A program made the position numbers and the translations under genes. The notes beneath the pieces were generated by a model. It was not told where the DNA came from, did not search any database, and worked only from the letters and a program-made list of their open reading frames with translations. Shown here piece by piece: positions 2,482-52,226 of a DNA stretch of 64,000 nucleotides (its first letter is position 1; the number at the start of each line of letters is the position of its first letter). Source of the stretch: an uncultured Clostridia bacterium (GTDB taxonomy: Bacteria > Bacillota > Clostridia > Peptostreptococcales > Anaerovoracaceae); NCBI GenBank assembly GCA_934271235.1, contig CAKQQT010000012.1, positions 17,416-81,415 of the forward strand. Reading direction: 5' to 3'.

Positions 2482-2660
2482 ACCAAGACCGAAACTTGGG
2501 ACAGCAGAAAAGAAGCGGCAGATTTTTACCTCCGTGCCATCGCAGGCTCCGAGGGCAGCGAATGTGAACGCTACACAAAATCTACACGAAACTGCTTATT
2601 GGCAAGGAGGTCTGCACGGATGAATACTAAAGTGAAGGAGCAGATTCTCGCCATCCGTGC
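2482..2660 (+). pseudogene. Frameshifted remnant of a small phage protein
   Basis: The reading frame TWDSRKEAADFYLRAIAG is followed by SECERYTK, then continues as IYTKLLIGKEVCTDE in another frame. One A appears to be missing from the run near 2577, shifting the frame. This composition is typical of short uncharacterised proteins next to packaging genes in Clostridial phages. No function is assigned. It directly precedes a terminase fragment, so both are read as one decayed prophage piece. Confidence 0.5.
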
Positions 2661-2865
2661 CACACCAAAGGCACATGGGCGGGAAAAGCGTTTGAACTGA
2701 TAGATTGGCAGGAGCAGATTATTCGAGACGTATTCGGAACGCTCAAACCAAACGGCTGCCGTCAGTTCAATATGGCATACATTGAAATTCCGAAAAAACA
2801 GGGCAAGTCAGAACTTGCCGCTGTGATTGATGGTGCGGTGGCAACCATTATGGTACTCGACCGTG
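2661..2865 (+). pseudogene. Phage terminase large subunit fragment
   Basis: The frame reads HTKGTWAGKAFELIDWQEQ and later MAYIEIPKKQGKSELAA. This is the start of the ATPase domain of a phage terminase large subunit, whose Walker A-like motif is usually RKNGKS or KKQGKS. Similarity is lost soon after SELAA and the rest of the roughly 550-residue protein is absent. With the upstream fragment it marks an old prophage or phage-derived insertion that has been deleted down to a few hundred bases. Confidence 0.65.
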
Positions 2866-2940
2866 CAATCCGCTGTGGTACAGTAACAGTGCTTCGGTCT
2901 ACGATGACCGCTGGATTTTGTTTATATAATTTCAGAATAA

Positions 2941-3026
2941 ATTCCCTTAAAAGTGCGATACTATTAAGGAAACTTCCCCTTAGCTCGTTGATTTTACCCT
3001 TATTTTCTGCTATAATTTAAGGGAAT
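2941..3026 (+). promoter_or_regulatory. fic promoter with inverted-repeat operator
   Basis: TTGATT (2988-2993), a 17-base spacer and TATAAT (3011-3016) form a good promoter. ATTCCCTTAA at 2941-2950 and TTAAGGGAAT at 3017-3026 are perfect 10-base inverted repeats that bracket it. A related ATTCCCT/TTAAGGAAAT pair lies after the gene near 4110-4142. The Fic protein has a C-terminal winged helix, so autoregulation through these sites is plausible. Confidence 0.55.
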
Positions 3027-4275: not shown

Positions 4276-4332
4276 TTGACTTTTATTGTCTAACGGTGTA
4301 GACTGCGATTGGAGTTTACTTGTGTAGACAAG
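4276..4332 (+). promoter_or_regulatory. blaI promoter and operators
   Basis: TTGACT (4276-4281), a 17-base spacer and TAGACT (4299-4304) form the promoter. The dyad GTCTA-N6-TAGAC (4288-4303) overlaps the -10 box. A second dyad, CTTGT-N4-ACAAG (4319-4332), lies downstream. Both contain TGTAGAC, in keeping with the TGTA/TACA half-sites of BlaI/MecI repressors. Autorepression by the gene at 4357 is inferred. Confidence 0.55.
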
Positions 4333-4356
4333 AAAGCTGTCAAGGAGGCTATGAAG

Positions 4357-4728
4357 ATGGAGATTCCGAAGATCCACGAAAGTGAATATCGTTTTTGTTT
4401 GATCCTGTGGGAGCATGAGCCGGTGACTGCGGTCGAGCTCGTAAAGCTCTGTCAGGAGCAGCTTGGCTGGAAACGGACCACGACCTATACGGTGATCAAA
4501 CGCCTTGGGGAACGTGGCGTATTAAAGAATGATAACAGCGTCGTTACATCGCTCGTTTCGAAAGACGAAGCGCAGATGTGTGAGATCGATGAACTGGTGG
4601 AGAAAAAATTTGAGGGTTCTTTGCCGGCGTTTATTGTTGCGTTTACAAAACGTCAGGACCTATCCGAAAAAGATCTTGACGAGGTCCAGCGCATGATCGA
4701 CCGCATCCGGAAAGGAGGCGCACGATGA
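4357..4728 (+). CDS. BlaI/MecI family transcriptional repressor
   Basis: A 123-residue winged-helix repressor. The N-terminal DNA-binding part runs from MEIPKIHESEYRF through TTTYTVIKRLGERGVL. The C-terminal dimerisation helix follows (LSEKDLDEVQRMIDRI). ATG at 4357 is chosen over 4351 and 4309 because GGAGG is eight bases upstream and BlaI proteins start MEIPKI. Family members are inactivated by cleavage through the membrane sensor-protease BlaR1 when a beta-lactam binds. The partner gene overlaps by four bases but is truncated to its first 100 or so codons, so the normal induction route is probably lost. No beta-lactamase gene is visible nearby. Confidence 0.85.
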   Translation: MEIPKIHESEYRFCLILWEHEPVTAVELVKLCQEQLGWKRTTTYTVIKRLGERGVLKNDNSVVTSLVSKDEAQMCEIDELVEKKFEGSLPAFIVAFTKRQDLSEKDLDEVQRMIDRIRKGGAR

Positions 4729-5075
4729 GCACCGTCTTTTTGAAGATCCTGAATATGAGTATCGCAGCGAGTTGGCTTATTCCGGCGGTGCTGCTGCTCA
4801 GACTGATCTTGAAGAAAGCCCCTAAATGGGTGACGGTTTTCCTTTGGGGCATCGTCGCGGTCCGCTTGATCTGTCCGTTTTCTCTTGCGAGCGCATGGAG
4901 CCTGATCCCGAGTGCGGAAACCATACCCTTGGACATCGGCATGGATCCAACGCCTGCCATTCACAGCGGCATAGAGGCGATCAATCAGGCAGTGAACCCG
5001 GTTCTCAGCCGCTCCAACACGCCGGTGCAAGGTGTGTTTTTCGCTAAGATTCTTGAAATAAAAGAAAAGCAATAA
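4725..5075 (+). pseudogene. Truncated BlaR1-like M56 sensor peptidase
   Basis: Starts in an ATGA overlap with the blaI stop. The 116 residues match the beginning of BlaR1/M56 proteins: two membrane segments (about 8-28 and 36-56) and the typical RLICPFSLASAWSLIPSAE. Then the frame ends with GVFFAKILEIKEKQ. The zinc protease motif HExxH and the beta-lactam-binding extracellular domain, which make up most of the usual 500 or more residues, are missing. It is read as a deletion remnant, although a short membrane peptide could still be made. Confidence 0.75.
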
Positions 5076-9263: not shown

Positions 9264-9448
9264 AACCCCGGACAGAAGTACTGGGGATCAGAAAAAGCAA
9301 AGATAAAAACGCAACGTATGTATGGAGCACCGGGCAGCGGCAAAGCCGTTAGGTTTCCAAAGGTCCTGCATACCAGAGCCGGTAGGTAGCCCGGCCGTCC
9401 TGCTTGTCAGGGTAAGTAACCTGCCCCTCCGGGTTGTCCGTTTTTTGC
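9264..9448 (+). ncRNA. Probable yjdF-motif riboswitch leader
   Basis: A long, GC-rich, non-coding leader precedes a YjdF/DUF2992 gene, the usual partner of the yjdF RNA motif, which binds azaaromatic compounds. It contains AACGCAACGTATG at 9308-9320, which I recall as part of the conserved core. It ends in nested stems (CCCGG with CCGGG around CAGG-N8-CCTG), then CGTTTTTTG at about 9439-9447, resembling a terminator-type expression platform. Identity rests mainly on the gene partner. A covariance-model search with the Rfam yjdF model would settle it. Confidence 0.65.
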
Positions 9449-9477
9449 GCATTGCAATGAAAAAAGGAGGGATTGTC

Positions 9478-16625: not shown

Positions 16626-16676
16626 AAAAGACCTCGCAGCAGGCACCGGCAAAGTGCTTCGGCTGCGAGGTTTTTT
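16624..16676. terminator. Bidirectional terminator, 53-bp repeat copy 1
   Basis: A hairpin with stem CCTCGCAGC/GCTGCGAGG flanked by A6 on the left and T6 on the right. It is identical over 53 bases to 18157-18209. It ends the second marR-ABC operon. Confidence 0.85.
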
Positions 16677-16693
16677 GCTGGTACAAATTTTCC

Positions 16694-16790: not shown

Positions 16791-18137
16791 ATGTTTAAGC
16801 GTAAGATTTATGATAAAATGCTTGCGTGGAAGCACGAATCGAACGGAAAGACGGCACTGATGATCGAGGGAGCCAGACGTGTCGGAAAATCAACGGTAAC
16901 GGAATATTTTGCAAAGAATGAATACGAGAGCTATATTTTGATCGACTTTTCAAGAGCATCACGGGACGTAAGGGCTTTGTTTGACGATGTGTCGGACTTA
17001 AACTATTTATTTTTACAGCTGCAGCTGCAGTATAAGACCGACTTGCATGAGAGAAATTCATTGATCATCTTCGATGAAGTTCAGCTCTGCCCGATGGCAA
17101 GACAGGCGATCAAGGCTTTGGTTGCGGATGGCAGATATGATTATATAGAAACCGGATCGCTGATCTCTATCAAGAAGAATATCAAAGATATTCTGATCCC
17201 GAGTGAGGAACGGAGGATCAGTATGTTTCCGATGGACTATGAGGAATTCCTTTGGGCGATCGGGGATGCGACAACCTTTTCCCTTCTAAAAATGTGTTTT
17301 GAAAAAAATCAGGCATTAGGGGAGGCTCTGAACCGAAAACAATTAAGACAGTTTCGCCTTTATATGCTGATCGGCGGTATGCCCCAAGCAGTGGCTGCGT
17401 ATATCGAAACCAATAATTTCAGAAAGGTGGATGCTGTCAAGAGAGACATCTTAACCTTGTACGAAAGCGATTTTGCCAAGATCGATCCAACCGGAAAGCT
17501 TGCAGCGATTTTTGACGCAGTGCCTGCGCAGCTGAATAAAAACGCAGCAAGATTTCAAGCAGGCAGCGTTCTGAACGGAGAAAAGTCGGATAAGATTTTA
17601 GAATTGCTCGCGGAACTGAAAGATTCTAAAACCGTGTTGGTCGCTTATCATTTAAATGATCCGAATGTCGGCCTGGCGAATACGAAAGATCTATCAAAAT
17701 TCAAGTTGTTTTTAAGCGATACAGGTTTGTTTGTCACCTTAATGTTCAAAGATCGGGATTTTACAGAAAATGAGATCTATGAACGACTCCTGAACGATAA
17801 ACTGAGTGTGAACCTCGGCTACCTGTATGAAAATGTTGTGGCGCAGTGTTTGGCTGCAAGCGGAAATGAATTGTTTTACCATACCATTATGAACGAGAGT
17901 TCGAAACATAATTATGAAATTGATTTTATTCTGGCGCGAAAAAACAAGATCATTCCGCTGGAAGTGAAATCGTCGACCTATCGAACGCATCGATCTTTGG
18001 ATGTTTTTACTGAAAAGTTTTCCGGCCGGATTTTAAAAAGATATTTGATCTATACCAAAGACTTGAGTAAAGACCGGGATGTCTGCTGCATTCCTGTTTA
18101 TATGACACCATTTTTAGGCGATTCTGGTTCGTTCTGA
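16791..18137 (+). CDS. ATP-binding protein, AAA_14/DUF4143 family
   Basis: A 448-residue protein of the archaeal/bacterial AAA_14-DUF4143 group. The N-terminal ATPase has Walker A GARRVGKST (about 29-37) and Walker B SLIIFDEVQLCP. The C-terminal DUF4143 half ends in a PD-(D/E)xK-like core, EIDFILARKNKIIPLEVKSS, so a nuclease-like fold is likely though its activity is unproven. The family is common, often mobile and of unknown function. The gene is more AT-rich than its neighbours and sits alone between two identical 53-base terminators, suggesting insertion as a cassette. ATG at 16791 follows AAGGAGAGC. Confidence 0.85.
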   Translation: MFKRKIYDKMLAWKHESNGKTALMIEGARRVGKSTVTEYFAKNEYESYILIDFSRASRDVRALFDDVSDLNYLFLQLQLQYKTDLHERNSLIIFDEVQLCPMARQAIKALVADGRYDYIETGSLISIKKNIKDILIPSEERRISMFPMDYEEFLWAIGDATTFSLLKMCFEKNQALGEALNRKQLRQFRLYMLIGGMPQAVAAYIETNNFRKVDAVKRDILTLYESDFAKIDPTGKLAAIFDAVPAQLNKNAARFQAGSVLNGEKSDKILELLAELKDSKTVLVAYHLNDPNVGLANTKDLSKFKLFLSDTGLFVTLMFKDRDFTENEIYERLLNDKLSVNLGYLYENVVAQCLAASGNELFYHTIMNESSKHNYEIDFILARKNKIIPLEVKSSTYRTHRSLDVFTEKFSGRILKRYLIYTKDLSKDRDVCCIPVYMTPFLGDSGSF

Positions 18138-18156: not shown

Positions 18157-18209
18157 AAAAAAGACCTCGCAGCAGGCACCGGCAAAGTGCTTCGGCTGCG
18201 AGGTTTTTT
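18157..18209. terminator. Bidirectional terminator, 53-bp repeat copy 2
   Basis: Identical to 16624-16676. It serves the ATPase gene on the plus strand and the agcS remnant on the minus strand. Confidence 0.85.
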
Positions 18210-18216
18210 ACTGCGG

Positions 18217-19361
18217 TTATTTCCAAAAATCCAGATCGGCATCGATCCCTGCGTCTTTCGCGATGAAGACCGGATTCTTGCCTTCTTTTTTCTGCCTGCA
18301 GTAGTCTTCTAAGCAGAGCATCGCCGGTTTCGCGAGGATCAGGATGACCGGGACATTGACGAGGACCATCAGACCCTGCGTCATGTCGGCAAGGTTCCAG
18401 ACCGTGCCGGCACTCGCGATCGCGCCTACAAACACGAGGCATGTGGCAAAGATCCGGAATACCAGAAGCCCGCCCTTGCTGATGTCGCGGTTTAAGATAA
18501 AGCGCAGGCAGCCCTCACAATAGGAATAGTTTCCGATCAAGGTCGTGAACGCGAACAGCGTCATGGCCGCGCTCAGGAAAATAGGCCCGAAGCCTCCGAG
18601 ATTGCTTTAAAGTCAAACGCGCTCCGGAAGATCATGGAAAACATTTCGCCCAGACGGTCGGCGTTCAAGACCAGCACGATGAGGGAGACCAGCACATAGA
18701 TGATACCCATGAAAGGGACCATGATCTCGGTTGAGCGGGTCAGTCTTTTCGCGCCGCCGATGACGATGATGCCGAATAACACTGCCAGGATCGCACCGAT
18801 GATGAGCGGCGTGGTCCCTTTGGCGTAGAAGCTGAACACGGAGAACGTATCCTGCAGGTTGTAGGCAGCGAGCATATTATAGCCGACTGCATAGGTCAGG
18901 ATGATTAAGAACGAAAAAAGAACGCCTAACCATCTCTGCTTGAGCGCGTCACGCATGTAAAAAGCCGGACCGCCGTAGCTTGTCCCGTCCGCGTTCCTTT
19001 TTTTGTAGATCTGCGCCAGCGTAGATTCCACGAAAGCAGAAGCTCCGCCGATGATCGCGGTGATCCACATCCAGAACACAGCGCCCGCGCCGCCTGCGCA
19101 GATCGCGGTCGCAACGCCGATGATATTGCCGGTACCGACACGGGACGCAGTCGAGACCATCAGAGCGCCGAACGAGGAGATCCCGTTTTCGGTCGTGGGC
19201 TTTTCCGTGATGACCTTAAAACATTCTGTGAATAAACGAACTTGAATGAATTTTGAGCGAACGGTAAGGATGATCCCGCCGACAAGCAGGATCAGCGGAA
19301 CGCACCAAGGCTGGTACAGCACGCCGCTCACCGCACTGATAAAATTGTTAAGAAAGTCCAT
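18217..19361 (-). pseudogene. Sodium:alanine symporter (AgcS family), internally deleted
   Basis: Reading from 19361 leftward, 262 residues match the N-terminal half of sodium:alanine/glycine symporters, including TASRVGTGNIIGVATAI and GGPAFYMRDAL. The frame then hits TGA at 18573-18575. The C-terminal part resumes in another frame from LSAAMTLFAFTTLIGNYSYCEG to the end at 18217. The segment between, which in the family carries the conserved SNEAGMGSAP region and about 100 residues, is missing. It is therefore read as a deletion plus frameshift, not a simple point mutation. Intact family members have about 450 residues. The promoter is intact. Confidence 0.82.
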
Positions 19362-19403
19362 AAAAAATTCTCCTTATAGAAATCGTGTGTATACATTCCT
19401 GCT

Positions 19404-19432
19404 ATCATAGCATTTTTCTTGACAAATTTCAA
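19404..19432 (-). promoter_or_regulatory. Promoter of the agcS remnant
   Basis: On the minus strand, TTGAAA (19432-19427), a 17-base spacer and TATGAT (19409-19404). GGAG precedes the ATG at 19361. Confidence 0.65.
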
Positions 19433-19470
19433 TCAAACTTTCGTGCGGCTTGAAAATCATTGAGAAAAAG

Positions 19471-19512
19471 AATAAAATAAATAGAGTTATCGATAAATTA
19501 ATTTATTTTATT
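19471..19512. promoter_or_regulatory. Inverted repeat upstream of tetR-MATE
   Basis: AATAAAATAAAT (19471-19482) and ATTTATTTTATT (19501-19512) are perfect inverted repeats around an 18-base centre, 33 bases before the TetR start. A candidate operator for that regulator; low sequence complexity weakens the case. Confidence 0.4.
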
Positions 19513-19544
19513 TTCATGATACACTTGAAATTTGAGGTGAACCG

Positions 19545-20123
19545 ATGCCTGCGAAGAAACAGATCACGAGAGAAAAAATTTTAGAGGCAGCGACGCAGCT
19601 GCTCCTGGAGGGCGGTATGGAAGCCGTAAACATCAAGGCGCTGGCCAAAGCCCTGCACTGCTCCACCCAGCCGATCTACTTATCGTTTGAGAACATGGAA
19701 GACCTCCGGCGGGCGCTGATACCGCTCGCGGTGCAGCGCTTCGCGGAACTTTTGCGGACCGGAACGGCTGATAACAAGGTCCCTTGCCTTTATGACATGA
19801 ACTATATCCGCTTGGCTCAAAAAGAACCGCAGCTGTTCCGGTTCCTGTTCATGCGTCGGAACGCGTTCGCGGAGGCGCGCGAAGCATTGCGGGGATTGAC
19901 GGAATACGCAATCGAGCGATTTATGCAGGACTATGAGCTCGATTATGATGAAGCGCATTTTTTGCACGATCAGCTTTGGATGCAGGCGCATGGCATCGCC
20001 TCGATGCTGGCGACCGGGTTCTGCGACTGGGACATGGAAAAAGCGGAACGCCTGCTGCGGGAAACCCGCGGCCTGCTGCTCGATCGATACAAACAGACGG
20101 GGGGCAAGCCGCATGCGCTTTAG
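19545..20123 (+). CDS. TetR/AcrR family transcriptional regulator
   Basis: A 192-residue TetR protein. The N-terminal helix-turn-helix spans about 10-55 (ITREKILEAATQLLLEGG, then IKALAKALHCSTQPIYLSFENMEDL). The ligand-binding half is helical and specific to a subfamily that often sits beside efflux genes. The start follows TGAGGTGAACCG. The end overlaps the MATE pump remnant by 11 bases, so the two form one operon in which TetR probably repressed the pump. The pump is now internally deleted, leaving the regulator without an obvious intact target. Confidence 0.87.
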   Translation: MPAKKQITREKILEAATQLLLEGGMEAVNIKALAKALHCSTQPIYLSFENMEDLRRALIPLAVQRFAELLRTGTADNKVPCLYDMNYIRLAQKEPQLFRFLFMRRNAFAEAREALRGLTEYAIERFMQDYELDYDEAHFLHDQLWMQAHGIASMLATGFCDWDMEKAERLLRETRGLLLDRYKQTGGKPHAL

Positions 20124-20670
20124 CGATCGGGACTTAAAGCAGCAGATCCTTCCGCTGTTCGTGGAGCAGTTCCTGCTGATCCTGGTCGGCATGGCGGATA
20201 CGTTCGTGGTCAGCTATGCCGGTGAAGCCGCAGTTTCGGGTGTCTCGCTGGTCAATTCGTTCAATACGGTGATGATCTTCTTATTTACTGCGCTTTCGTC
20301 GGGCGGCGCGGTCATCATCAGCCAATATATCGGCAATGGAAACAAGCCCTTGGCGCAGCGGTCGGCAGGCCAGCTGCTGATGATCTCCGCGGTGATCTCC
20401 GCAGCGCTTGCGGCGCTGATCCTGCTGTTTGATGGAACGTTGTTATCACTGCTTTTCGGTAAGGTTGAGGCGGATGTCATGGAGTCCTGCCGTATATACC
20501 TGCGCATTACAACTTGGTCCCTGCCGGCATTGGCGATCTACGACGCCGGCGTGGCGCTGGGCATGAGCATGGATTTGGTATTCCGCGGGCTGATCTTTAT
20601 CCGGCGATATCATACGCAGAAGTGGACGACCTTCCGGCTGATCCAGCATGCGGAAATTTTCCTCCGGTGA
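20113..20670 (+). pseudogene. MATE family efflux pump with large in-frame internal deletion
   Basis: The first 150 or so residues match MATE multidrug/sodium antiporters: LPLFVEQFLLILVGMADTF, ALSSGGAVIISQYIG, and helices up to LPALAIYDAGVALG. The frame then passes directly into MSMDLVFRGLIFIRRYHTQKW, which is typical of the C-terminal end of the same family. About 250 residues are missing although the frame is kept, giving 185 residues instead of about 450. The ATG overlaps the TetR stop. Six or more helices are lost, so no transport is expected. Confidence 0.8.
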
Positions 20671-20714
20671 AGATCCGCTGCAAGCGAAGAAATCAAGGCG
20701 GCAAGGCTATTATA

Positions 20715-21174
20715 TTATAGGTATCGCGTGAAATGATCAAAGTCCTCCTGCAGGGATTCCAAAAAGCATTTGACATGCCAGCCGTCGGCAGCGGCGTGGT
20801 GACAGGTCAGAGAAAGCGGCATCTGTGTGCGGCCTGCGTCGGAAACGAACTTGCCTGTCTCTACGGACGGAAAGTAGTACGGCTTGTTTTCATAACTGTG
20901 GACCGCGAAATGCGTGAAATCGATCCACGGCACACAGGACACCGTATAGGCGTTTGGCGGCGGAGTCTGCGGCTGTGAAAGCACGCCTTGGACGTTTGGT
21001 GACCAGCCACAGGTAGGCTGGGAAAAATTTCAGGCCGCTGTCTTTGACGGTTTTGCGCAGGGCCGTCACATCCGTTTGCACGGTAAGAGAATAGCCGGTA
21101 GGCGCCATTTTGGCAAAGCAGCAGAACATCTGGCTGCGAGGCCAGGTTTGCAGATCGATCGGTGTAAAGTACAT
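20715..21174 (-). pseudogene. Chloramphenicol acetyltransferase-like gene, deleted and frameshifted
   Basis: Reading leftward from 21174, the protein starts MYFTPIDLQTWPRSQMF and SLTVQTDVTALRKTVKDSG, matching the N-terminus of the CAT family. After LWLVTK the frame is lost. The C-terminal part resumes as NAYTVSCVPWIDFTHFAVHS and then LSLTCHHAAADGWHV, which contains the catalytic His segment HHxxxDG. About 70 residues are missing between the two parts. AGGAGG precedes the start. With three frames needed and the middle absent, an active enzyme is unlikely. Confidence 0.75.
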
Positions 21175-21258
21175 CTTGTTTCCTCCTGTTTTCGCTTTTT
21201 CTGCATCGTAACATACAAATACGACGAGAAAAACCGACGCTGCGTAGAGTTAAAAAAA

Positions 21259-21293
21259 GAACGTTTGTTCTGCCTCGGATTTTATGATATTAT
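21259..21293 (+). promoter_or_regulatory. Promoter with LexA-like box upstream of tfoX-like gene
   Basis: TTGTTC (21265-21270), a 17-base spacer and TATTAT (21288-21293) form the promoter. GAACGTTTGTTC (21259-21270) overlaps the -35 and matches the Gram-positive SOS box GAAC-N4-GTTC with one departure in the centre. Confidence 0.45.
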
Positions 21294-21326
21294 GAAAACA
21301 GCAACAATAGAAAGGCGGTGCGCGGC

Positions 21327-21650
21327 ATGGCGACATCAAAGGAATATCTGGAGTTTATTTTGGAACAGCTTTCGGACTTGGAAGACATCACTTACCGCAG
21401 TATGATGGGAGAATATATTTTGTATTACAAAGGCCGGATCGCAGCCTATCTTTGCGATGATCGGTTTCTGGCAAAGCCCGTCGAGGCGGCCAAACGGCTG
21501 ATGCCAAACGCGCAGCAGGAACCGCCTTACGAGGGCGCGAAACCGATGCTTCTGGTGGAAGAAGTCGACGATCGAGATTTTCTGACGGACTTATTCCGTG
21601 CGATGTATGAGGAACTTCCGGAGCCAAAGAAGAAAAAGGCGAAAAAATGA
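21327..21650 (+). CDS. TfoX/Sxy N-terminal domain protein
   Basis: A 107-residue stand-alone TfoX N-terminal domain. The core is YLEFILEQLSDLEDITYRSMMGEY, then GRIAAYLCDDRFLAKPVEAAK and PPYEGAKPMLLVEEVDD, followed by a Lys-rich tail. Full Sxy/TfoX proteins regulate competence in Proteobacteria, but single-domain Bacillota versions have no established role. ATG at 21327 is preferred to GTG at 21318 because AAAGGCGG then sits at normal spacing. A possible SOS box in its promoter hints at stress control. It may be co-transcribed with the rhuM remnant 18 bases downstream. Confidence 0.8.
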   Translation: MATSKEYLEFILEQLSDLEDITYRSMMGEYILYYKGRIAAYLCDDRFLAKPVEAAKRLMPNAQQEPPYEGAKPMLLVEEVDDRDFLTDLFRAMYEELPEPKKKKAKK

Positions 21651-21668
21651 CAGAAAGGCGGTGTGTGC

Positions 21669-22094
21669 GTGGAACAATACGGAGAAATGCTCATTTATCA
21701 GACCGAGGATGGGATGACAAAGATCAGTGTGAGTATGCATGATGAAACAGTTTGGCTGTCATTAGACCAAATGGCGGAGCTGTTTCAACGAGATAAATCA
21801 ACGATCTCACGACATATCAAAAATGTATTTGAAGATGGAGAATTGCAGCGGGAGGCAACTGTTGCAAAAATTGCAACAGTTCAAAGCGAGGGAAACAGGC
21901 AGGTCGAAAGAGCAATAGAATATTACAATTTAGATGTCATCATTTCTGTGGGCTATCGTGTAAAATCAAAGCGCGGCGTGCAGTTCAGGATCTGGGCGAC
22001 GAAGATTTTGAAAGAATACTTGCTCAAGGGCTTTGCCATGGACGATGAACGCCTGAAAGGAAACGGCAGTAAAAAGGAGGAACCCGGATCATGA
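21669..22094 (+). pseudogene. RhuM family protein, C-terminally truncated
   Basis: About 140 residues match the start of RhuM family (virulence protein) sequences: VWLSLDQMAELFQRDKSTI with a helix-turn-helix, then RAIEYYNLDVIISVGYRVKS and FRIWATKILKEYLLKGFAMDDERLK. Intact members have about 330 residues. Here the text stops at RLKGNG and joins a ribosome site for the next gene. GTG at 21669 is preferred because AAAGGCGG is at the same spacing as in the gene before. The domain that is lost has no known catalytic role, so a DNA-binding fragment could persist. Confidence 0.7.
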
Positions 22095-22480
22095 AATTTG
22101 TTATGTCTTACAGCTGCGGCAAGGACAGCACGCTGGCACTGCATCATATGATCGCGCAGGGGCATGAGCCGATCGCGCTGCTCACGATGTTCAATGAAGA
22201 TGCGGAACGGACTTTTTTTCATGGAGCGGATCGAAACATGCTGGAAGCTTATGCAGAGGCTTTACAGCTTCCGCTTTTGCTGACTCCGGCAAAGGGCGAA
22301 AATTATCATCTGGAGATGGAGAAGATGGAGAACTGCGGGATCGATATCTGCGGCGAAAACGGGGAATATCATACTTTGGTGATGAACGGACCGATTTTTC
22401 ATACGCCGATCCCATATCGCACCGGAGAAATCCTGGAATTTGGAGATTTTTCAATTATAACGGTTGATGTACCGCTTTAA
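22091..22480 (+). pseudogene. Dph6/MJ0570-type ATP-binding protein with in-frame internal deletion
   Basis: The N-terminus MKFVMSYSCGKDSTLALHHM is the PP-loop of the adenine nucleotide alpha-hydrolase-like Dph6 family. The C-terminus ENCGIDICGENGEYHTLVMNG is the family's other conserved end. Between them only about 50 residues remain (up to YHLEMEKM), whereas intact members have about 220 residues. The missing stretch of about 90 residues includes the region usually reading VFGDI. The frame is preserved, so a 129-residue protein may be made, but the active site should be incomplete. The start overlaps the rhuM remnant by four bases. Confidence 0.72.
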
Positions 22481-22538
22481 GATCAGAGAGCACGAATTTC
22501 GAGCGCAGAAAAAACGAAGACGAGCGTCAAAAATATGC

Positions 22539-22589
22539 TTGACAAGTAACCGATTGGTAACTATAATAAAAAGTAACCGAACGGTTACT
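22539..22589 (+). promoter_or_regulatory. Consensus promoter with twin palindromic operators
   Basis: TTGACA (22539-22544), exactly 17 bases, TATAAT (22562-22567). Operator 1 (22545-22562) fills the spacer: AGTAACC-N4-GGTAACT. Operator 2 (22572-22589) is AGTAACCG-AA-CGGTTACT. Centres are 27 bases apart. The layout implies tight repression, probably by a TetR- or MarR-type protein not identified here. Confidence 0.8.
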
Positions 22590-22614
22590 TTTGCAAAAAG
22601 GGGGAAAAAATAGA

Positions 22615-23253
22615 ATGACAGAAAACAAGATCGTCATCCGTCTCGAGGAGGAGGCGGATCAACGTAAGAACGAAGATCTGACACGCGAAGCGTTTTGGAA
22701 TGTATACCGTCCCGGCTGCATGGAGCATTATGTACTGCATTGCTACCGGAACGATCCGGCGTTTGTACCGGAGCTGAATTTTGTGATGGAACTGGACGGA
22801 GAACTGATCGGACAGGTCATCTATGTGCGTTCGGAGATCCTATGTGATGACGGACGGACGGTACCGATCATGACCTTTGGTCCCATCAGCATCGCACCCG
22901 CTTATAAGCGGCAGGGATACGGCAAGCAGCTGCTGGACTATTCCATGGAGCAGGCACAGAAAATGGGCGCGGGCGCGCTGGCCATCACCGGGAATACCGG
23001 CTTTTACGGTAAATCCGGTTTCGTACCGGCGAAGACAAAGGGTGTTCGCTATGCCGATGATCCGGACGCGGATTACTTCCTGATCAAGGAACTGACACCG
23101 GGATTCCTGGAGGGTATCTCCGGTACCTATAAAGATCCGGCAGGGTATTTTGTCTGCGCACAAGATCCGGAAGCCTTTGCGCAGTTTGAGGCGACGTTTC
23201 CGCCGAAGCAGAAATTAAAGCTGCCGGGTCAGATATTCGAAAGCGGCGTATAG
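22615..23253 (+). CDS. GNAT family N-acetyltransferase
   Basis: A 212-residue acetyltransferase of the GNAT fold. The acetyl-CoA-binding segment is FGPISIAPAYKRQGYGKQLL, with the R/Q-x-x-G-x-G/A pattern at KRQGYGKQ. Later come the family's AITGNTGFYGKSGF and a C-terminal extension (about 140-212). ATG at 22615 is preceded by AAGGGGGAA. The substrate is unknown. The gene stands under a perfect promoter with two operators, which implies inducible expression, and the adjacent Vat-type acetyltransferase suggests a stress or drug-modification setting. Confidence 0.87.
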   Translation: MTENKIVIRLEEEADQRKNEDLTREAFWNVYRPGCMEHYVLHCYRNDPAFVPELNFVMELDGELIGQVIYVRSEILCDDGRTVPIMTFGPISIAPAYKRQGYGKQLLDYSMEQAQKMGAGALAITGNTGFYGKSGFVPAKTKGVRYADDPDADYFLIKELTPGFLEGISGTYKDPAGYFVCAQDPEAFAQFEATFPPKQKLKLPGQIFESGV

Positions 23254-23402
23254 GCGTATAGGCCTTGCAATTTCATATGGAAAGCCATATAATAAAAACA
23301 GCAAAAAAGGGATCGAGGTGGTATGCGGTGAGGCTCTGTATTGCAGTATGCCGAATGGGAAAAGAAGTTCATGAAATCTAAGCACCATTCGGAGGAACAA
23401 TT

Positions 23403-24062
23403 ATGATACCAAATTGGAAAATTTATCCACGTTCACAAGGAAAAACAACCGTTTACTTAAAAAATGTCGTGACAGATCCGACGATCACGGTCGGAGAATA
23501 TACCATGTACGATGATTTCGCCCATGATCCGCGGGACTTTGAAAAAAACAATGTGCTGTACCATTATCCGGAGTGTAATCACGACCGGCTGGTGATCGGC
23601 AAGTTCTGTTCCATTGCCTGCGGCGCGAAGTTCATTTTTAACGCCGCAAATCACGCACTTGGAAGCCTTTCGACCTATCCGTTTCCGATCTTCTTTGAAG
23701 AATGGGGACTTTCGCCGGAGCCGGAGAAGATCGCCGCGGCTTGGGACAACAAAGGCGATATCCTTGTCGGCAACGACGTATGGATCGGCTATGAAGCGAT
23801 CATTCTGGCAGGCGTGACCATCGGTGACGGCGCGATCATCGGCAGCCGTGCGGTTGTGACCAAGGACGTACCGCCTTATACCATCGTCGGCGGGATCCCG
23901 GCAAAGCCGATCCGCAGACGGTTTGACGATGCAGTTGTCGAGAAGCTGGAAACACTGCGTTGGTGGGATTGGGATGAAGAAACGATCCGGCGGAACCTCC
24001 CGGCCATTCAGGCCGGCGATCTTGCCGCACTGACGGCAGCAAAAGGACAAAAGCGCACATAA
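23403..24062 (+). CDS. Vat/CatB-type xenobiotic O-acetyltransferase
   Basis: A 219-residue left-handed beta-helix acetyltransferase. The catalytic His lies in FNAANHALG, the position of the Vat/XAT histidine. Hexapeptide repeats follow ([22 protein letters not shown]), and the C-terminal [14 protein letters not shown] closes the fold. Relatives acetylate streptogramin A or chloramphenicol with acetyl-CoA, but many chromosomal members have unknown substrates. A weaker start region and 149 bases separate it from the GNAT gene. Twin hairpins follow the stop codon. Confidence 0.83.
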
Positions 24063-24140
24063 TAAGAAAGTCGGCTTCGCCGATCAGATTTTTAGCGGTA
24101 GACTTTCTTGTTATTCCGGAAATATCGAAACGATATTTCC
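24063..24140 (+). terminator. Twin hairpins after the Vat-type gene
   Basis: First, TAAGAAAGTC (24063-24072) pairs with GACTTTCTT (24101-24109), ending in GTTATT. Second, GGAAATATCG (24118-24127) pairs perfectly with CGATATTTCC (24131-24140). The first includes the 29-base repeat shared with 4222-4250. A third stem, CCGCCGA/TCGGCGG at 24156-24177, is followed by a T run only on the minus strand. Confidence 0.55.
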
Positions 24141-24197
24141 TATCTAATAAAAAGGCCGCCGAAAGGTTCGTCGGCGGAGCGATAGGAGAGGCAGAGT

Positions 24198-24761
24198 ATG
24201 TCACAAACAACCAAGCGGGCGCTGGAGACTTCGCTCAAAAATCTTCTGGCGAAAAAGCCGCTGGACAAGATCACGATCAACGATATTGCGGAGGACTGCG
24301 GCATCAGTCGGATGACCTTCTATTATCATTTTAAAGATATCTACGACCTGATCGAATGGTCCTGCATTGAGGAAGCCTCACGGGTGATCGAGGGCAATAA
24401 GACCTACGATACCTGGCAGGAGGGTTTTCTGCGCATTTTCGAAGCAGTTCTAGCGAACAAACCGTTTGTGATGAATGTCTATCACTCGGTCAGCCGGGAA
24501 CAGATCGAGCAGTTCCTTTACAAGGTCACCTATCATCTTTTGATTTCGGTCGTAGAGGAAAAAGCGTCCGGCATGCAGGTACGGGAGGAAGACAAGGCGT
24601 TCATCGCGGACTTTTATAAGTATGCATTTGTGGGACTGATGCTCGACTGGATCCGCAAGGGCATGAAAGAGGATCCGCATCGGATCATTGAGGATCTGAG
24701 CCTGCTGGTGCAGGGAAGTGTCAGCGCAGCGTTGGAACGTTACCGCACGGATCGGCCTTGA
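24198..24761 (+). CDS. TetR/AcrR family regulator (DhaS-like)
   Basis: A 187-residue TetR protein. The N-terminus TTKRALETSLKNLLAKKPLDKITI, then CGISRMTFYYHFKDIYDLI, is typical of the DhaS/YbiH-like branch with a C-terminal domain of the TetR_C_33 kind. The start follows AGGAGAGGCAG. It ends 133 bases before the oleate hydratase gene, with a terminator and a separate promoter between, so it is transcribed alone. Fatty-acid-responsive TetR regulators next to oleate hydratases are common, so control of ohyA is plausible but inferred. It could also bind the twin operators at 22545-22589. Confidence 0.85.
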   Translation: MSQTTKRALETSLKNLLAKKPLDKITINDIAEDCGISRMTFYYHFKDIYDLIEWSCIEEASRVIEGNKTYDTWQEGFLRIFEAVLANKPFVMNVYHSVSREQIEQFLYKVTYHLLISVVEEKASGMQVREEDKAFIADFYKYAFVGLMLDWIRKGMKEDPHRIIEDLSLLVQGSVSAALERYRTDRP

Positions 24762-24789
24762 GGTCCGGGCAGAAAATTTATACAAAACA

Positions 24790-24827
24790 GCCGCTTTGAT
24801 AAAAGTTTTATCAAGGCGGCTTTTTTG
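24790..24827 (+). terminator. Terminator after tetR
   Basis: A long stem of AGCCGCTTTGATAAAA with TTTTATCAAGGCGGCT, followed by TTTTTG. Confidence 0.85.
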
Positions 24828-24831
24828 TTTA

Positions 24832-24859
24832 TTGTTTTGTTTTGCGGAAAGACTATAAT
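24832..24859 (+). promoter_or_regulatory. Promoter of oleate hydratase
   Basis: TTGTTT (24832-24837), a 16-base spacer and TATAAT (24854-24859). The leader is short. Confidence 0.55.
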
Positions 24860-24894
24860 CAGGCTATCAAATGAAATGAAAGGGGAAATCAAGT

Positions 24895-26670
24895 ATGTAT
24901 TATGCAAGCGGCAATTATGAAGCATTCGCGCGCCCGCGCAAACCGGAGGGCGTAGATCGGAAATCGGCGTATATCATCGGAAGCGGCTTGGCGGCGCTTT
25001 CGGCAGCGTGCTTTTTGGTCAGAGACGGGCAGATGAAAGGGGAGCATGTGCACATTCTGGAGAAAGATCCGATCCCGGGCGGAGCCTGTGACGGCTATAA
25101 ATATGAAAATGTCGGCTATGTGATGCGGGGCGGCCGGGAAATGGACAATCACTTCGAGTGCATGTGGGATCTGTTCCGCTCGATCCCGTCCATTGAGACC
25201 GAGGGCGTTTCGGTGTTGGATGAATATTACTGGCTGAACAAGGAGGACCCGAACTTTTCGCTGTGCAGGGCGACGGTCAACCGCGGAGAAGACGCGCACA
25301 CGGACGGCAAGTTCGCGATCTCCGATAAGGGAGCGATGGAGATCATGAAACTGTTCTTCACACCGGACGAAGAACTGGAAGATAAGCGCATCACCGATGT
25401 TTTCGATGAGGAGGTGCTGAACTCCAACTTCTGGCTGTACTGGCGGACGATGTTCGCATTCGAAAACTGGCACAGCGCGCTGGAGATGAAGATCTACATC
25501 AAGCGTTATATCCACCATATCGGCGGACTGCCGGATTTCACGGCGCTGCGTTTCACAAAGTACAACCAGTATGAGTCGATGATCCTGCCGATGGTAAAGT
25601 ATCTCAAGAGCTTCGGCGTGCAGTTCCACTACGGCGTCAAGGTGATCAATGTGGAATTTGAATGCAGCGAGGAGAAGAAACAGGCCGTACGCATCGACGT
25701 GGAGATGGACGGCAGGAACGATCACATCGATCTGACGGAAAACGATCTGGTCTTCATCACCAACGGCGGCTGCGTGGAAAACTCGGCGATCGGCAGCCAG
25801 AACGAACCGGCGGCTTTCAACAAGGAGATCAAAGAGGGAGGCGGCTGGGATATGTGGCGTAAGATCGCGGCGCAGGATCCGGCCTTCGGCCACCCGGACA
25901 AGTTCTGCTATGACCCGGAACAGTCCAACTGGATGAGTGCAACGGTCAATACCCTCGACCAGCGCATCGTACCGTATATCAAGAAAATCTGCAAGCGCGA
26001 TCCTTTCTCGGGAAAAGTCGTGACCGGCGGTATCGTGACCGTCAAGGATTCTTCCTGGCTGCTCAGCTGGACGATCAATCGTCAGCCGCAGTTCCGGGAC
26101 CAGCCGAAGGATCAGCTTCTGGTCTGGGTCTACGGTTTGTTCTCGGATCAGCCGGGCGATTTCGTCAAGAAACCGATGCGCGACTGCACCGGTAAGGAGA
26201 TCTGCATGGAATGGCTGTATCACTTAGGCGTACCGGAGAACGAGATCGAAGATATGGCAGAGCACAGTGCCAACACGGTACCTTGCATGATGCCGTATAT
26301 CACCGCATTCTTCATGCCGCGTGCGCACGGCGACCGGCCGGACGTTGTGCCGCAGGGCGCTGTCAACTTCGCATTCCTGGGACAGTTCGCAGAAACCGCA
26401 CGCGATACGATCTTTACGACCGAGTATTCGATCCGTACCGGTATGGAAGCCGTTTACACGCTGCTTGATGTGGACCGCGGCGTGCCGGAGGTCTGGGGCA
26501 GCACCTATGATGTCCGCGACTTGCTGAATGCAACGGTCAAACTGCGCGACGGCAAGAAGATCACCGATATGGATCTTGGTTTCAAGGAAAAGATCGCGCT
26601 GCATGAGGTCCTCAAAAAGATCAGCGGCACGGATCTAGAGAAGATTTTGAAAGAATATGAGGTGATCTAA
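24895..26670 (+). CDS. ohyA: Oleate hydratase
   Basis: A 591-residue FAD-dependent enzyme of the family once called myosin-cross-reactive antigen. It adds water across the cis-9 double bond of oleate or linoleate to give 10-hydroxy fatty acids. Visible motifs are the FAD-binding IIGSGLAALSAACFLVRDG (27-45), the regulatory/catalytic segment GGREMDNHFECMWD with the catalytic Glu, VFITNGGCVENSAIG, and the C-terminal FLGQFAETARDTIFTTEYS. Length is normal and no defects are seen. AAAGGGGAAAT precedes the ATG. In gut anaerobes this detoxifies unsaturated host or dietary fatty acids. Confidence 0.95.
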   Translation: MYYASGNYEAFARPRKPEGVDRKSAYIIGSGLAALSAACFLVRDGQMKGEHVHILEKDPIPGGACDGYKYENVGYVMRGGREMDNHFECMWDLFRSIPSIETEGVSVLDEYYWLNKEDPNFSLCRATVNRGEDAHTDGKFAISDKGAMEIMKLFFTPDEELEDKRITDVFDEEVLNSNFWLYWRTMFAFENWHSALEMKIYIKRYIHHIGGLPDFTALRFTKYNQYESMILPMVKYLKSFGVQFHYGVKVINVEFECSEEKKQAVRIDVEMDGRNDHIDLTENDLVFITNGGCVENSAIGSQNEPAAFNKEIKEGGGWDMWRKIAAQDPAFGHPDKFCYDPEQSNWMSATVNTLDQRIVPYIKKICKRDPFSGKVVTGGIVTVKDSSWLLSWTINRQPQFRDQPKDQLLVWVYGLFSDQPGDFVKKPMRDCTGKEICMEWLYHLGVPENEIEDMAEHSANTVPCMMPYITAFFMPRAHGDRPDVVPQGAVNFAFLGQFAETARDTIFTTEYSIRTGMEAVYTLLDVDRGVPEVWGSTYDVRDLLNATVKLRDGKKITDMDLGFKEKIALHEVLKKISGTDLEKILKEYEVI

Positions 26671-26725
26671 GGGACAGAGCAGCAACAGGATCAAAAAGAA
26701 AAACATTACAGATCATTTCCAAAAC

Positions 26726-26766
26726 ACCCTCCCGGCGCATGATAAGGACGCCGGGAGGGTGTTGTT
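26726..26766 (+). terminator. Terminator after oleate hydratase
   Basis: A 13-base stem CACCCTCCCGGCG/CGCCGGGAGGGTG with an ATGATAAGGA loop, followed by TTGTTT. Confidence 0.8.
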
Positions 26767-26818
26767 TACGCGCTGCGATTTGGGCGCGCTTCGAGGATCG
26801 AAAACGGATTTTGGATGC

Positions 26819-27132
26819 CAGATCATTTTCCGGATGAATAATGTACTGCTTTTCGGCGGCTTTTCGAAAATTTGCACGCGGCAGGAAAATTAAAATAATA
26901 AAAGTTTACAAATAAAGAAATGATTTCCTACCAATGAGGCGAGCCTATTGTCGAATCTTGTTGAAAAAGCTCGATCCATGTCACCGCGAACATGCAGCGG
27001 AAGCTTCTCAGCCTGTCTTTCTTTGAAAAAATGTAAAAAAGTACGAAAATGTGTCGGAGCAAGCGAAAATCCCGTGCAGATTTTACAAAAAGGGCATATA
27101 AGCAGTACAATATGCATACTTAGAAAATTCTG
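26819..27132. repeat. MITE-like element, family A, copy 1
   Basis: A 314-base non-coding segment related to 51874-52209. Its left end (CAGA...CCGGATGAATAATGTACTGC) and right end (GCAGTACAATATGCATACTT...ATTCTG) match those of the other copy. The terminal inverted repeats are more eroded here: only TGTACTGCTT is perfect. Internal matches include GTGCAGATTTT and a TTGAAAAAATGTAAAAAA-type stretch. No gene of its own is credible. It lies between ohyA and the MGMT-like gene. Confidence 0.65.
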
Positions 27133-27306
27133 GAAGCGCGCAGCTAGTCAGAAATCGGAGTCAAAAATTAAGAAGCGTGCGGCGCTTCGGGGAAGCACTC
27201 AGGGATCCGAGGGTCGGAACGAGGTTGACAAGCAGACGTTTTGCGCATATGATTTTGATAGCATGTGTTTTAGCAGAAACAGCAGCGAAGGGGAGGATAC
27301 GGAAAC

Positions 27307-27615
27307 ATGAAACGGACCTTAGATGAGGATCTGATCTATGAGATCCTGGCGGTCGTCGAAGAAATCCCGGAAGGGCGCGTGGCGTCCTATGGCCAGATCG
27401 CGCGGCTGATCGGCCGTGATAAAAACGCCAGGTTGGTCGGCAAGGTTTTGAGTATGGCGGAGTTTTATGGAGATTATCCCTGCCACCGGGTCGTGAATCA
27501 CGCCGGACGGACCGCGCCGGGCTGGCGGATGCAGCGAGCCTTGCTGGAAGAAGAGGGCGTGGGATTCCGCCCGAGCGGCTGTGTAGACATGAAGCGATAT
27601 CAATGGGAATGCTGA
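27307..27615 (+). CDS. MGMT/alkyltransferase-like DNA repair protein
   Basis: A 102-residue protein equal to the DNA-binding domain of O6-methylguanine-DNA methyltransferase. The helix-turn-helix with arginine finger is EGRVASYGQIARLIG. The active-site loop reads PCHRVVN, so the acceptor Cys is present. That separates it from alkyltransferase-like proteins with Trp or Ala at this place. It lacks the N-terminal domain of Ada/Ogt. It could repair or flag O6-alkylguanine; the short form's activity varies. GGAGG lies upstream, and the gene is 12 bases from the kinase gene, suggesting co-transcription. Confidence 0.85.
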   Translation: MKRTLDEDLIYEILAVVEEIPEGRVASYGQIARLIGRDKNARLVGKVLSMAEFYGDYPCHRVVNHAGRTAPGWRMQRALLEEEGVGFRPSGCVDMKRYQWEC

Positions 27616-27627
27616 GGTGGACAAATT

Positions 27628-28632
27628 ATGATACGAATGGAAATCGCATTGTTTTTAGTGCTGGTCTTTATTGCCTGCATGTATTTTTCGGCGAAACGCA
27701 GGTCCGGTATGCTGCACCGGACGTTCAGCGCGCTGCTGCTTGTGGTCCCGGTGCATCTGATCTTTGACGCTGTGACGATCTATACCGTCAACCGTTTGGA
27801 TACCGTGCCGCAAACGGTGAACGACATCCTGCACCGCTGCTTTATCGGCACGATGGTCGTGGTCATGTATCTGTTTTATCAGTACATCGCAGTCCTCGTG
27901 GAGGATGAAACCGGAAAACCCCGCAGGCTGGATTTCGCAGCAAGACTGTACCTTGCAGCGGCGGTTATCGCGGCACTGCTTCTGCCGATCGATTACACGA
28001 TCACGCCGGCCGGCAACTATTCGAGCGGCTATGCGGCAGACATCTGTTATGTGAGCGTGGCGGCCTATCTCCTGCTTTGCGTCGGCATGATGGCCGGAAA
28101 CTGGAAACAGCTGCATCTTAAAAAACGTCTGGCGATTGGCGCGGCGCTGCTGATCGAGCTGACCGTTTGCCTGCTGCAGGGACTGCATCCGACCTGGCTG
28201 ATCAGCGGCATGGGACTGACGCTGATGACGCTGGCCTTTTATCTGACATTGGAAAACCCGGATATCCTCCGTGCGCAGCTGAATGAACAGCAGATGTCGA
28301 TGCGTTATCTCAAAAGTCAGATCAACCCGCATTTCCTGTATAATACACTGGACGCGATCCGCATTCAGGCACAGCTCAACGACGACAAAAAGGTCGCGGA
28401 CCTGCTCATGCAGCTAGTCGATTTTTTCCGCCGCAGCGTCAAAGTCGATCAGCCGATGGTCGCGTTGGAAGATGAACTGGAGCTTTTGGACGCCTATATG
28501 AGCCTGATGTGTTACCGCTATCCGCAGATCCGATATGTCTGCGGACGAAAATACGGACTTTCTTATACCGAAAATGAAAACGGCGGCGTGACAGCCCATC
28601 TGCTGCTGCCGGCAAAGGAGGAAGAAGTTTGA
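27628..28632 (+). pseudogene. Sensor histidine kinase lacking its ATPase core (in-frame deletion)
   Basis: The N-terminal 210 residues hold about six membrane helices. Then comes the phospho-acceptor segment QINPHFLYNTLDAIRI with His235, as in the His_kinase (LytS/YesM-like) family, and the helix DELELLDAYMSLMCYRYPQIRYV. At this point the family continues with the N box (LxPLVENAIxHG) and the glycine-rich ATP lid. Here it jumps directly to YGLSYTENENGGVTAHLLLPA, the family's last strand. The ATPase core, about 90 residues, is missing while frame and both ends are intact. The kinase should be unable to phosphorylate itself. Confidence 0.78.
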
Positions 28633-28728
28633 AACAAATAAGTAGAGGACAGCCAAGAAACAAAGGGCATAGCAAATAAACCACCGAAATTGCCGGTTTT
28701 GAAAATTGAATATTAACACAACACCGAA

Positions 28729-29727
28729 TCAGGGAGCAGGAACAATATCATCTTTGATAATGTAGCCTCGTCGTTTCAATAGATTCCGTGCCTGTGAAGT
28801 AGTCAATACTTTTGCTTCATTCACAGGACGTGATTCAAGAAAGCCTTCAGAAGTATATGGCTTTAAATCTGTGAGTTGGATTTGATTAAAGCATTTGCAA
28901 CTTGCACCAAAACTGGTTTAAAATAAGAAACGGCACGGGAAATCCCAGTGGATTTGATTTTGTGATTGCTTTGATCATTACGAGGACAACATCCAGCCCA
29001 TGAAACGAGGTTTTTCGCTGTGGGGAAGACAGACATATCACCTCCGATTTCAGATAGCACCTGAATGGCAGTCAATGGGTTCTTATCGAATCCCGGTATG
29101 GTCCTGTATTTCCTCAATGGGGGTTTTACACCTGCCATCCACAAAAGGAGCTACATCAAAAGTTTCCCCAGGGTGTTGTAAAATCTGTTCTGTAATAGAA
29201 CGAGAAGATTTCCCAAATATATCGGAAAAAACATCATCTAACTTTAAGTTTGATACAGTAAGACAATTATGAGCACGATTTTTCTCGCCGGTGATCATAC
29301 AGGTGAGCTTAAAACGGTATCTTACCAAATCTCTTAATTCACGGATATCAGCAGGTGGGATAAAGGATGGTTTTACCATGCCGCACATATATAAATCACA
29401 AATCCACCTGGCATCCTTACGATCTGTTTTGTTGCCCTTTTGAGGCTTGGTATATTTGGGATGGGAAAGAGTAACCCGGATGTTATTCTTCTCTAGGACA
29501 TTAAAAACAGGGAGCCAGTACTTACCGGCAGATTCCATGCAGACATCCGTACAGTTGTATTTGGAAAGCCAGCCACACAACTCTTGCAAACCTTTGGAAA
29601 AGGAAGAAAAGCGAGCTTCTTTGTACTCCGTACGCTTAAGGGAATCCGTGATGCCGATACAGGCATAGATCCAGGTTTTGTGGACATCAAGACCGCAACA
29701 GTTATTTTTAAGAATTTTAAACGACAA
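28729..29727 (-). pseudogene. IS110 family transposase, with two internal deletions
   Basis: From 29727 leftward, the DEDD/RuvC-like domain is well preserved: CCGLDVHKTWIYACI, CMESAGKYWLPV, and KTDRKDARWICDLY supply the acidic residues. After GRCKTPIEEIQ the frame is lost. The Transposase_20 domain resumes as IPGFDKNPLTAIQVLSEIGG and SVFPTAKNLVSWAGCCP in another frame (from about 29105). After ALIKSN a second break occurs, and the tail KPYTSEGFLESRPVNEAKV runs in a third frame to TGA at 28729-28731. About 60 residues are missing at the first junction and about 40 at the second, judged from family length. It cannot make active transposase. Confidence 0.82.
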
Positions 29728-29945
29728 AAAAATACCTCCTGATAATTGTAATTTTAAAACTGACAGTGACTGGTCATCCGGCTAAATCGAGTCGACTTTG
29801 GAAGAGATAAGTTTACGGGCTACGATATGCGCCAATCCTTGATGCCTTAACGGATGACCGACAACATATAAGCATGCGAGGTCGCCGCTATACAGCCCCG
29901 CCACGCACCTCCACGTGTTCTGTAGTGTGTCAGTCTTATAACATA
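29728..29945 (-). ncRNA. Candidate IS110 bridge-RNA region
   Basis: A non-coding stretch upstream of the transposase start. CGGATGACC (29851-29859) and GGTCATCCG (29772-29780) are perfect nine-base inverted repeats enclosing 70 bases, consistent with a large stem-loop. IS110 elements express a structured bridge RNA from this side of the transposase gene. The RNA boundaries and guide loops cannot be fixed by eye. Confidence 0.45.
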
Positions 29946-30039
29946 ATAATATCAGAAGGAAGCTAGATTAGAAAAGCGAAAGTAAGCCAAGATGTTTCAT
30001 GACGCATTGGTGCCTTTCGCAGAAAGGCGGATTATAAGC

Positions 30040-30432
30040 ATGAAAAAACTGCGTGTACTGTTAGTCGATGATGAGATCATGATCCGTGAGGGGTTCAAAC
30101 GACTTTTTGATTGGGAAGCGCACGACTGCGAAGTCGTGGGTGAAGCAGCAGACGGCATGGAGGCGCAGAGCCGGATCGATGAATTCCACCTCAATCCGCA
30201 GTACATCAGTCAGCTGTTTAAGAATGAGATCGGCGTGAATTTTCTCACCTACCTGACCAATATCCGTATGGAAAAAGCAAAAAAACTGCTGCTGGCCACA
30301 GCGCTTCCGATCACGGAGATCGCGGAGCAGGCCGGCTACGGAGATTACCGCGTTTTTACGAAAGTTTTCAAAAAAGCGGAGGGCGTGACGCCGTCCCAGT
30401 ATCGCAAGGCTTTCCTGGAAGAAGGGATTTGA
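30040..30432 (+). pseudogene. Response regulator reduced to receiver start plus AraC output domain
   Basis: The start MKKLRVLLVDDEIMIREGFKR and DWEAHDCEVVGEAADG is the first 45 residues of a YesN-type receiver domain with the acidic pocket DD. The frame then passes from EAQSRIDE straight to FHLNPQYISQLFKNEIG, inside the C-terminal AraC-type DNA-binding domain, which is complete to the end (GYGDYRVFTKVFKKAEG). The phosphorylated Asp and about 350 residues of a typical YesN-like protein are missing, in frame. The 130-residue product might still bind DNA but cannot be phosphorylated. AAAGGCGG lies upstream of ATG 30040. Confidence 0.78.
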
Positions 30433-33618: not shown

Positions 33619-33866
33619 GATACAATGTCCTTGGCACTGCGATTGCCGAGTTGAAAACGACGGCAGAGCAGATGCAAGACAGGTGTCCGAGTGAAGGCGA
33701 CTGCGGAGCGAGAGCGACAGCAGAGCCGCTCAGCGACCGGACCAATGTCCTTGGCACTGCGATTGCCGAGTTGAAAACGACGGCAGAGCAGATGCAAGAC
33801 AGGTGTCCGAGCGAAGGCGACTGCGGAGCGAGAGCGACAGCAGAGCCGCTCAGCGACCGGACGAAT
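33619..33866 (+). repeat. Promoter plus two tandem 120-bp leader repeats ahead of rarA
   Basis: An extended -10, TGATACAAT (33618-33626), is followed by two copies of a 120-base unit (33627-33746 and 33747-33866) that differ at only two positions. Each begins with the hairpin CTTGGCA-CTGCGAT-TGCCGAG. The first 75 or so bases match the leader of rlmD (360-440). The unit length is a multiple of three and both strands stay open, but no translated product is supported. Confidence 0.75.
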
Positions 33867-51405: not shown

Positions 51406-51469
<64 letters not shown>

Positions 51470-52209: not shown

Positions 52210-52226
52210 GAAGTACTGAGGGTAAA

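Follow-up and report, generated by a model that had tools for sequence, protein, structure and literature searches.

The DNA analyzed here is a 64-kb window (64,000 nucleotides) of the genome of an uncultured clostridial bacterium, and our subject is the interval at 18.2-30.4 kb within it, in which six chromosomal genes and one copy of an IS110-family insertion sequence (IS) have kept both ends and lost an internal piece. The six genes code for an agcS-type amino acid symporter, a MATE-family efflux transporter, a CAT-like acetyltransferase, a Dph6-like ATP pyrophosphatase, a sensor histidine kinase, and an AraC-type response regulator. Profile matches, along with alignments or distance counts against full-length relatives, place a contiguous gap in each of the seven, with both flanks alignable to those relatives, in keeping with a preliminary description of this DNA that had reported retained termini and missing middles. 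The losses span about 36-265 residues, or about 100-800 bp, rather than the 40-350 residues it had given. At four of the eight joins (MATE, Dph6-like, kinase, and response regulator) the reading frame is preserved, as that description had also held, and these four frames remain open. Furthermore, in what is left of the coding sequence of the interval's seven broken chromosomal genes, namely these six and a truncated rhuM-like gene, no stop codon occurs ahead of the join or of the natural end, and no gene inactivated by a point change alone was seen in the 64-kb window. Genes interspersed among the remnants, such as those for OhyA, GNAT, TetR, and hexapeptide acetyltransferase proteins, cover most of the length of their family profiles, and in profile searches those outside the interval mostly match their families in full.

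For the agcS, MATE, and CAT-like remnants no near-identical counterparts were found: the closest relatives recovered, in searches with strict E limits across 130 genomes each, are 64-71% identical, and the sizes of these three losses are hence approximate. The agcS remnant (18217..19361, reverse strand; 5' part down to 18600, 3' part 18600-18217) matches positions 6-234 and 341-424 of the 424 in TIGR00835, split over two open reading frames (ORFs). Its join at 18600, read in the DNA, is out of frame and removes a net ~268 bp, or 17-19% of the gene; in the relatives L100 and L104, 89 amino acids (aa) separate the matching points. The MATE gene (20113..20670, forward strand, join at 20559/20560) is missing 795 bp (265 aa) in frame, which is more than half of its length by alignment and counts against L108 and L109, and covers the MatE profile only at positions 1-129 of 161. 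In the CAT-like gene (20715..21174, reverse strand, join at 20995-20987), alignment, the DNA at the join, and distance counts give an out-of-frame loss of a net ~191 bp, which leaves PF00302 positions 1-60 in one frame and 130-205 (of 205) in another. None of these families is naturally short among the relatives found: AgcS proteins measure 475-515 aa at 10/10 places, MATE proteins 446-472 aa at 7/7, and CAT-like proteins 222-239 aa at 3/3. Of the rhuM-like gene only the 5' part remains (21663..22070, forward strand; PF13310 positions 1-72 of 252), the 3' part having been lost together with the spacer up to the ribosome-binding region of the next gene. Its relatives are 335-347 aa long by alignment and counts, and rhuM proteins are often short elsewhere too, with fewer than 220 aa at 10 of the 55 listed places.

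The remaining three chromosomal genes can be set against intact alleles that are 95-99% identical. The Dph6-like remnant (22091..22480, forward strand) lacks 261 bp (87 aa) in frame relative to the intact protein P0122, to which 126 of its 129 retained residues are identical; the join lies within 22316-22325 at a three-residue repeat. The sensor kinase (27628..28632, forward strand, join at about 28540-28543) is identical at 330 of 334 retained residues to the intact P0001 and has lost, again in frame, 297 bp (99 aa) of its ATP-binding part; correspondingly, no HATPase profile match was found in the window's protein. In the response regulator (30040..30432, forward strand), 351 bp (117 aa) are missing in frame at a two-residue repeat (30178-30184), and comparison with the intact P0242, shared at 123 of 130 retained residues, indicates that most of the receiver domain is gone. 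In protein searches that considered lengths of 0.55-1.75 times the query, the best 120 of 1838 kinase matches were all 432-533 aa long, and 119 of the best 120 of 906 Dph6-like matches were 211-225 aa long, the remaining one being the window's own protein. Since such close intact alleles exist, the losses in these three genes look recent; taken with the absence of stop codons from the retained parts, this suggests that the remnants are young pseudogenes.

The IS110-family element (about 28626-30036, reverse strand) lies between the kinase and the regulator, and the kinase stop codon sits inside its left end. Its family membership is evident from a DEDD transposase and an IS110 C-terminal domain, with matches to PF01548, PF02371, and pieces of NF033542, and from a non-coding region upstream of the transposase. 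The transposase gene was said in the preliminary description to have been hit twice, and this is indeed the case: one gap of 109 bp follows 28875 and another of 152 bp follows 29102, with the same lengths obtained against each of three relatives, and either deletion alone shifts the frame. About 300 bp separate the transposase start from the right end. A short hairpin is present at the right end, and in some copies changes in one of its sides are matched by changes in the other. Comparison with 16 fetched loci, picked by similarity to the IS itself (L092, L094, and L124-L137), revealed that in 17/17 copies, the window's included, three variable bases separate the right end from an ATG. Among the 16 fetched copies, this ATG opens a frame of at least 108 aa in 13 and of 5-14 aa in the other three. 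At the opposite side, a purine-rich stretch resembling a Shine-Dalgarno (SD) sequence by a loose pattern precedes the left end in 12 of 13 cases, the thirteenth being cut by a contig end. Thus, this IS110 subgroup appears to insert between an SD-like stretch and a start codon, resembling IS900 of Mycobacterium avium subsp. paratuberculosis, an IS110-family element described as targeting translation initiation signals (PMC8141618). The papers listed by our literature search on insertion of IS110 elements at translation starts concerned IS900 only. The present case differs from IS900 in the host phylum and in the element, with all 17 right ends placed 3 nt before an ATG and no long hed-like frame seen. 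The insertion probably disturbed the kinase-regulator pair before or during its decay. A second IS110-family transposase begins at the right edge of the window (63685-63999).

Could these gaps have been made in the laboratory? Chimeric joins at short repeats during library preparation or assembly would yield false deletions, and short repeats are where chimeras too join. The shortened Dph6-like protein (P0121) is present in identical form on 6 contigs, and the shortened regulator (P0241) likewise on 7, in each case probably including the window's own source; their clusters comprise 4 and 3 member sequences, respectively. Because these exact proteins recur on several contigs, a one-off assembly error, which the preliminary description had kept as an alternative, is unlikely. 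The joins are present in different assemblies, though the contigs behind both proteins could be re-assemblies of one sample, which leaves an artefact some room. The shortened kinase was not among the best 120 of 1838 matches and may be hidden in the P0001 cluster. Moreover, only deletions are seen in the region, and the genes on both sides of it are intact. On balance, we regard an artefact of library preparation or assembly as very unlikely.

The preliminary description had read the retention of both ends as the mark of an active deletion process. To place this in context, deletions of 109, 152, 200, 261, 268, 297, 351, and 795 bp (that of the CAT-like gene rounded to 200) were placed at random on the gene layout of the window's intact flanks: 55% fell inside one gene, 30% cut one end, and 14% spanned genes. 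Three further losses enter the comparison as boundary-type events, namely the rhuM-like gene, a blaR1-like (M56) gene of which the 5' part persists (4725..5072, forward strand; PF05569 positions 2-98 of 296), and an ORF (2631..3017, forward strand) in which a fragment of a phage large terminase is matched (PF03354 positions 1-41 of 178) at an E of 0.0016, under the family cut-off. With this count, to which P is sensitive, 8 of 11 deletions are internal, which fits random placement (P 0.20). Similarly, four in-frame joins out of eight fit chance (binomial P 0.26). We accordingly rejected both the kept ends and the in-frame share as signs of a special process, and the principal deduction drawn earlier from the kept ends fails, because position within genes and frame are those expected of random placement. 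What stands of the earlier claim is that the internal deletions are real, that more than one has struck the IS, and that short repeats occur at some joins; the loss of middles in itself is not unusual. The blaR1-like and rhuM-like genes, cited as extending the pattern, are truncated as claimed but have lost their 3' parts instead of keeping both ends, and for the small gene at 58877, likewise cited, a family profile search gave no usable match.

The same figures bear on the idea that the short genes are functional, with in-frame deletions selected as makers of small proteins. The four in-frame joins with open frames speak for it; however, their share fits chance, the kinase is left without a recognizable ATP-binding domain and the regulator without most of its receiver domain, MATE has lost over half of its length, and the frame is shifted in agcS, the CAT-like gene, and the IS. 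We consider selection for such small proteins highly improbable.

What does stand out is the spectrum of lesions, i.e., large deletions with no stop codons in the retained coding parts. A useful yardstick is a survey of Salmonella pseudogenes, which attributes 141 of 346 single-hit pseudogenes to deletions of at most 20% of the gene, 17% to insertions, and 133 to point changes, with stop codons frequent at 131 of 346 (PMC2916853). By our own subtraction from these figures, losses exceeding 20% of a gene by deletion would make up about 13 of 346. The window resembles the surveyed set in that its pseudogenes are young, mostly bear a single inactivating change, and commonly arose by deletion (PMC2916853). 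It differs in that five of the six internally cut chromosomal genes have lost more than 20% of their length and in that no gene broken solely by a stop was seen. Counted against all chromosomal pseudogenes (the IS left out and agcS scored as a miss), 5 of 9 lost more than 20% internally, which has a P of 8e-6 under the Salmonella share; because two different organisms are being compared and the region had been selected for looking odd, we take this value only as a lead.

As for how the deletions arose, the preliminary description had proposed microhomology or slippage, for which the joins give a divided answer. In comparison with the closest intact protein, the residues common to both break points number one in the kinase, two in the regulator, and three in the Dph6-like protein. 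Against random deletions of 30-150 residues within the same proteins, the corresponding P values are 0.126, 0.010, and 0.002, or 0.00025 combined. These residue-level repeats would translate to direct repeats of up to about 6, 8, and 10 bp, respectively, lengths estimated from the proteins that synonymous codons could shorten. RecA-independent recombination that deletes the sequence between short direct repeats has precedent in E. coli, where it was studied in experimental models rather than in a natural pseudogene cluster such as this one (PMC5426353). A closer natural parallel is the archaeon Haloquadratum walsbyi, whose strains are reported to differ by deletions at 4-20 bp direct repeats that have hit transposons too and left many pseudogenes (PMC3119063). 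The multiplicity of deletions and the inclusion of transposon copies are shared with the window (PMC3119063), whereas the Haloquadratum repeats were read in DNA between two complete genomes and ours are deduced from proteins at three joins, with the IS joins nearly repeat-free.

Putting these strands together, we think it probable that dispensable accessory genes in this stretch have recently turned into pseudogenes, mainly through deletions made by known joining processes. The stretch would be a cluster of young pseudogenes, each of which lost about 100-800 bp to the deletion that broke it. Such deletions may be produced by ordinary RecA-independent joining, that is, by slippage or annealing at short direct repeats, some joins being nearly repeat-free; a mixture of the two is probable on the sequence of the joins. 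They would then persist on account of the dispensability of the genes in this lineage, and the IS110 element that landed between the kinase and regulator genes probably contributed to the release of that pair from selection. Several observations weigh against this reading. A second regulator reference (P0243) shares only one residue at the break points, which raises the combined P to 0.002, and a more distant Dph6 reference (P0123) shares none. The two IS110 joins, the sole ones whose overlap could be read in DNA, overlap by just 1 and 0 bp. Large deletions strongly outnumber point inactivation, unlike in the Salmonella survey, and an ordinary process does not fully explain this spectrum.

In an alternative reading, deletions of 100-800 bp arise at a raised rate across the lineage, owing to a changed state of repair or replication, and accumulate wherever selection is weak. 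In its favor are a count of at least 11 large losses, by deletion or truncation, in the 64 kb, the lack of any gene seen to be broken only by a point change, the improbability of the 5/9 share as gauged from the Salmonella figures, and the Haloquadratum example, which illustrates that such a spectrum can dominate (PMC3119063). Against it stand the selection of the region for oddness, the single window, the yardstick taken from a different organism, and the largely complete genes outside the stretch. A deletion-prone lineage is rather unlikely in our estimation. Its strong form, namely a natural deletion mutator in which deletions of this size occur far faster than point inactivation, such that accessory genes and ISs are gutted before stops appear, seems a shade more doubtful still. 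If the spectrum were genome-wide, it would capture an early phase of gene loss in a host-associated bacterium, with intact and deleted alleles still coexisting, so that the rate of large deletion could be measured against that of point inactivation; should it be a local accident, there is nothing out of the ordinary in the case. Either way, annotators should be warned that in-frame internal deletions leave behind plausible short ORFs.

In wider searches for the setting of the stretch, a scan of genome contigs for OhyA gave 80 loci, the best at 87% identity and with no synteny seen beyond the neighboring TetR gene, and among viral contigs no relatives of P0122 or P0001 were found, whereas the ATPase had 2 relatives there at 59%. 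By its RarA protein the window lies nearest to Lachnospiraceae-type genomes, at a best identity of 73-76%, and RarA searches by family, order, and genus gave no match above 76% DNA identity, one of them under a limit so strict that its negative carries little weight. The DUF4143 ATPase gene (16791-18137), next to the agcS remnant, is flanked by two copies of a 57-nt terminator-like sequence that are 98% alike (16624-16680 and 18157-18213), as if the gene had arrived with a copied terminator. Between the remnants, at 26827-27136, lies one of two copies of a dispersed non-coding repeat of ~310-335 bp, the other being at 51879-52213; the ends are conserved at 95% and 88%, the middle is more diverged and has indels, and the repeat is possibly an element resembling miniature inverted-repeat transposable elements (MITE-like). 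Elsewhere, the blaR1-like piece is preceded by a blaI-like repressor gene (4309-4728, PF03965), and the terminase piece is possibly a prophage remnant. A 120-nt tandem unit, 99% identical, occupies 33623-33862 and has a third, 66% identical copy near 353-472. The tetranucleotide GCAA is repeated perfectly about 13 times at 51418-51468, within a long non-coding stretch. Finally, a match to the yjdF (azaaromatic) riboswitch at 9293-9457 is located upstream of a DUF2992 gene.

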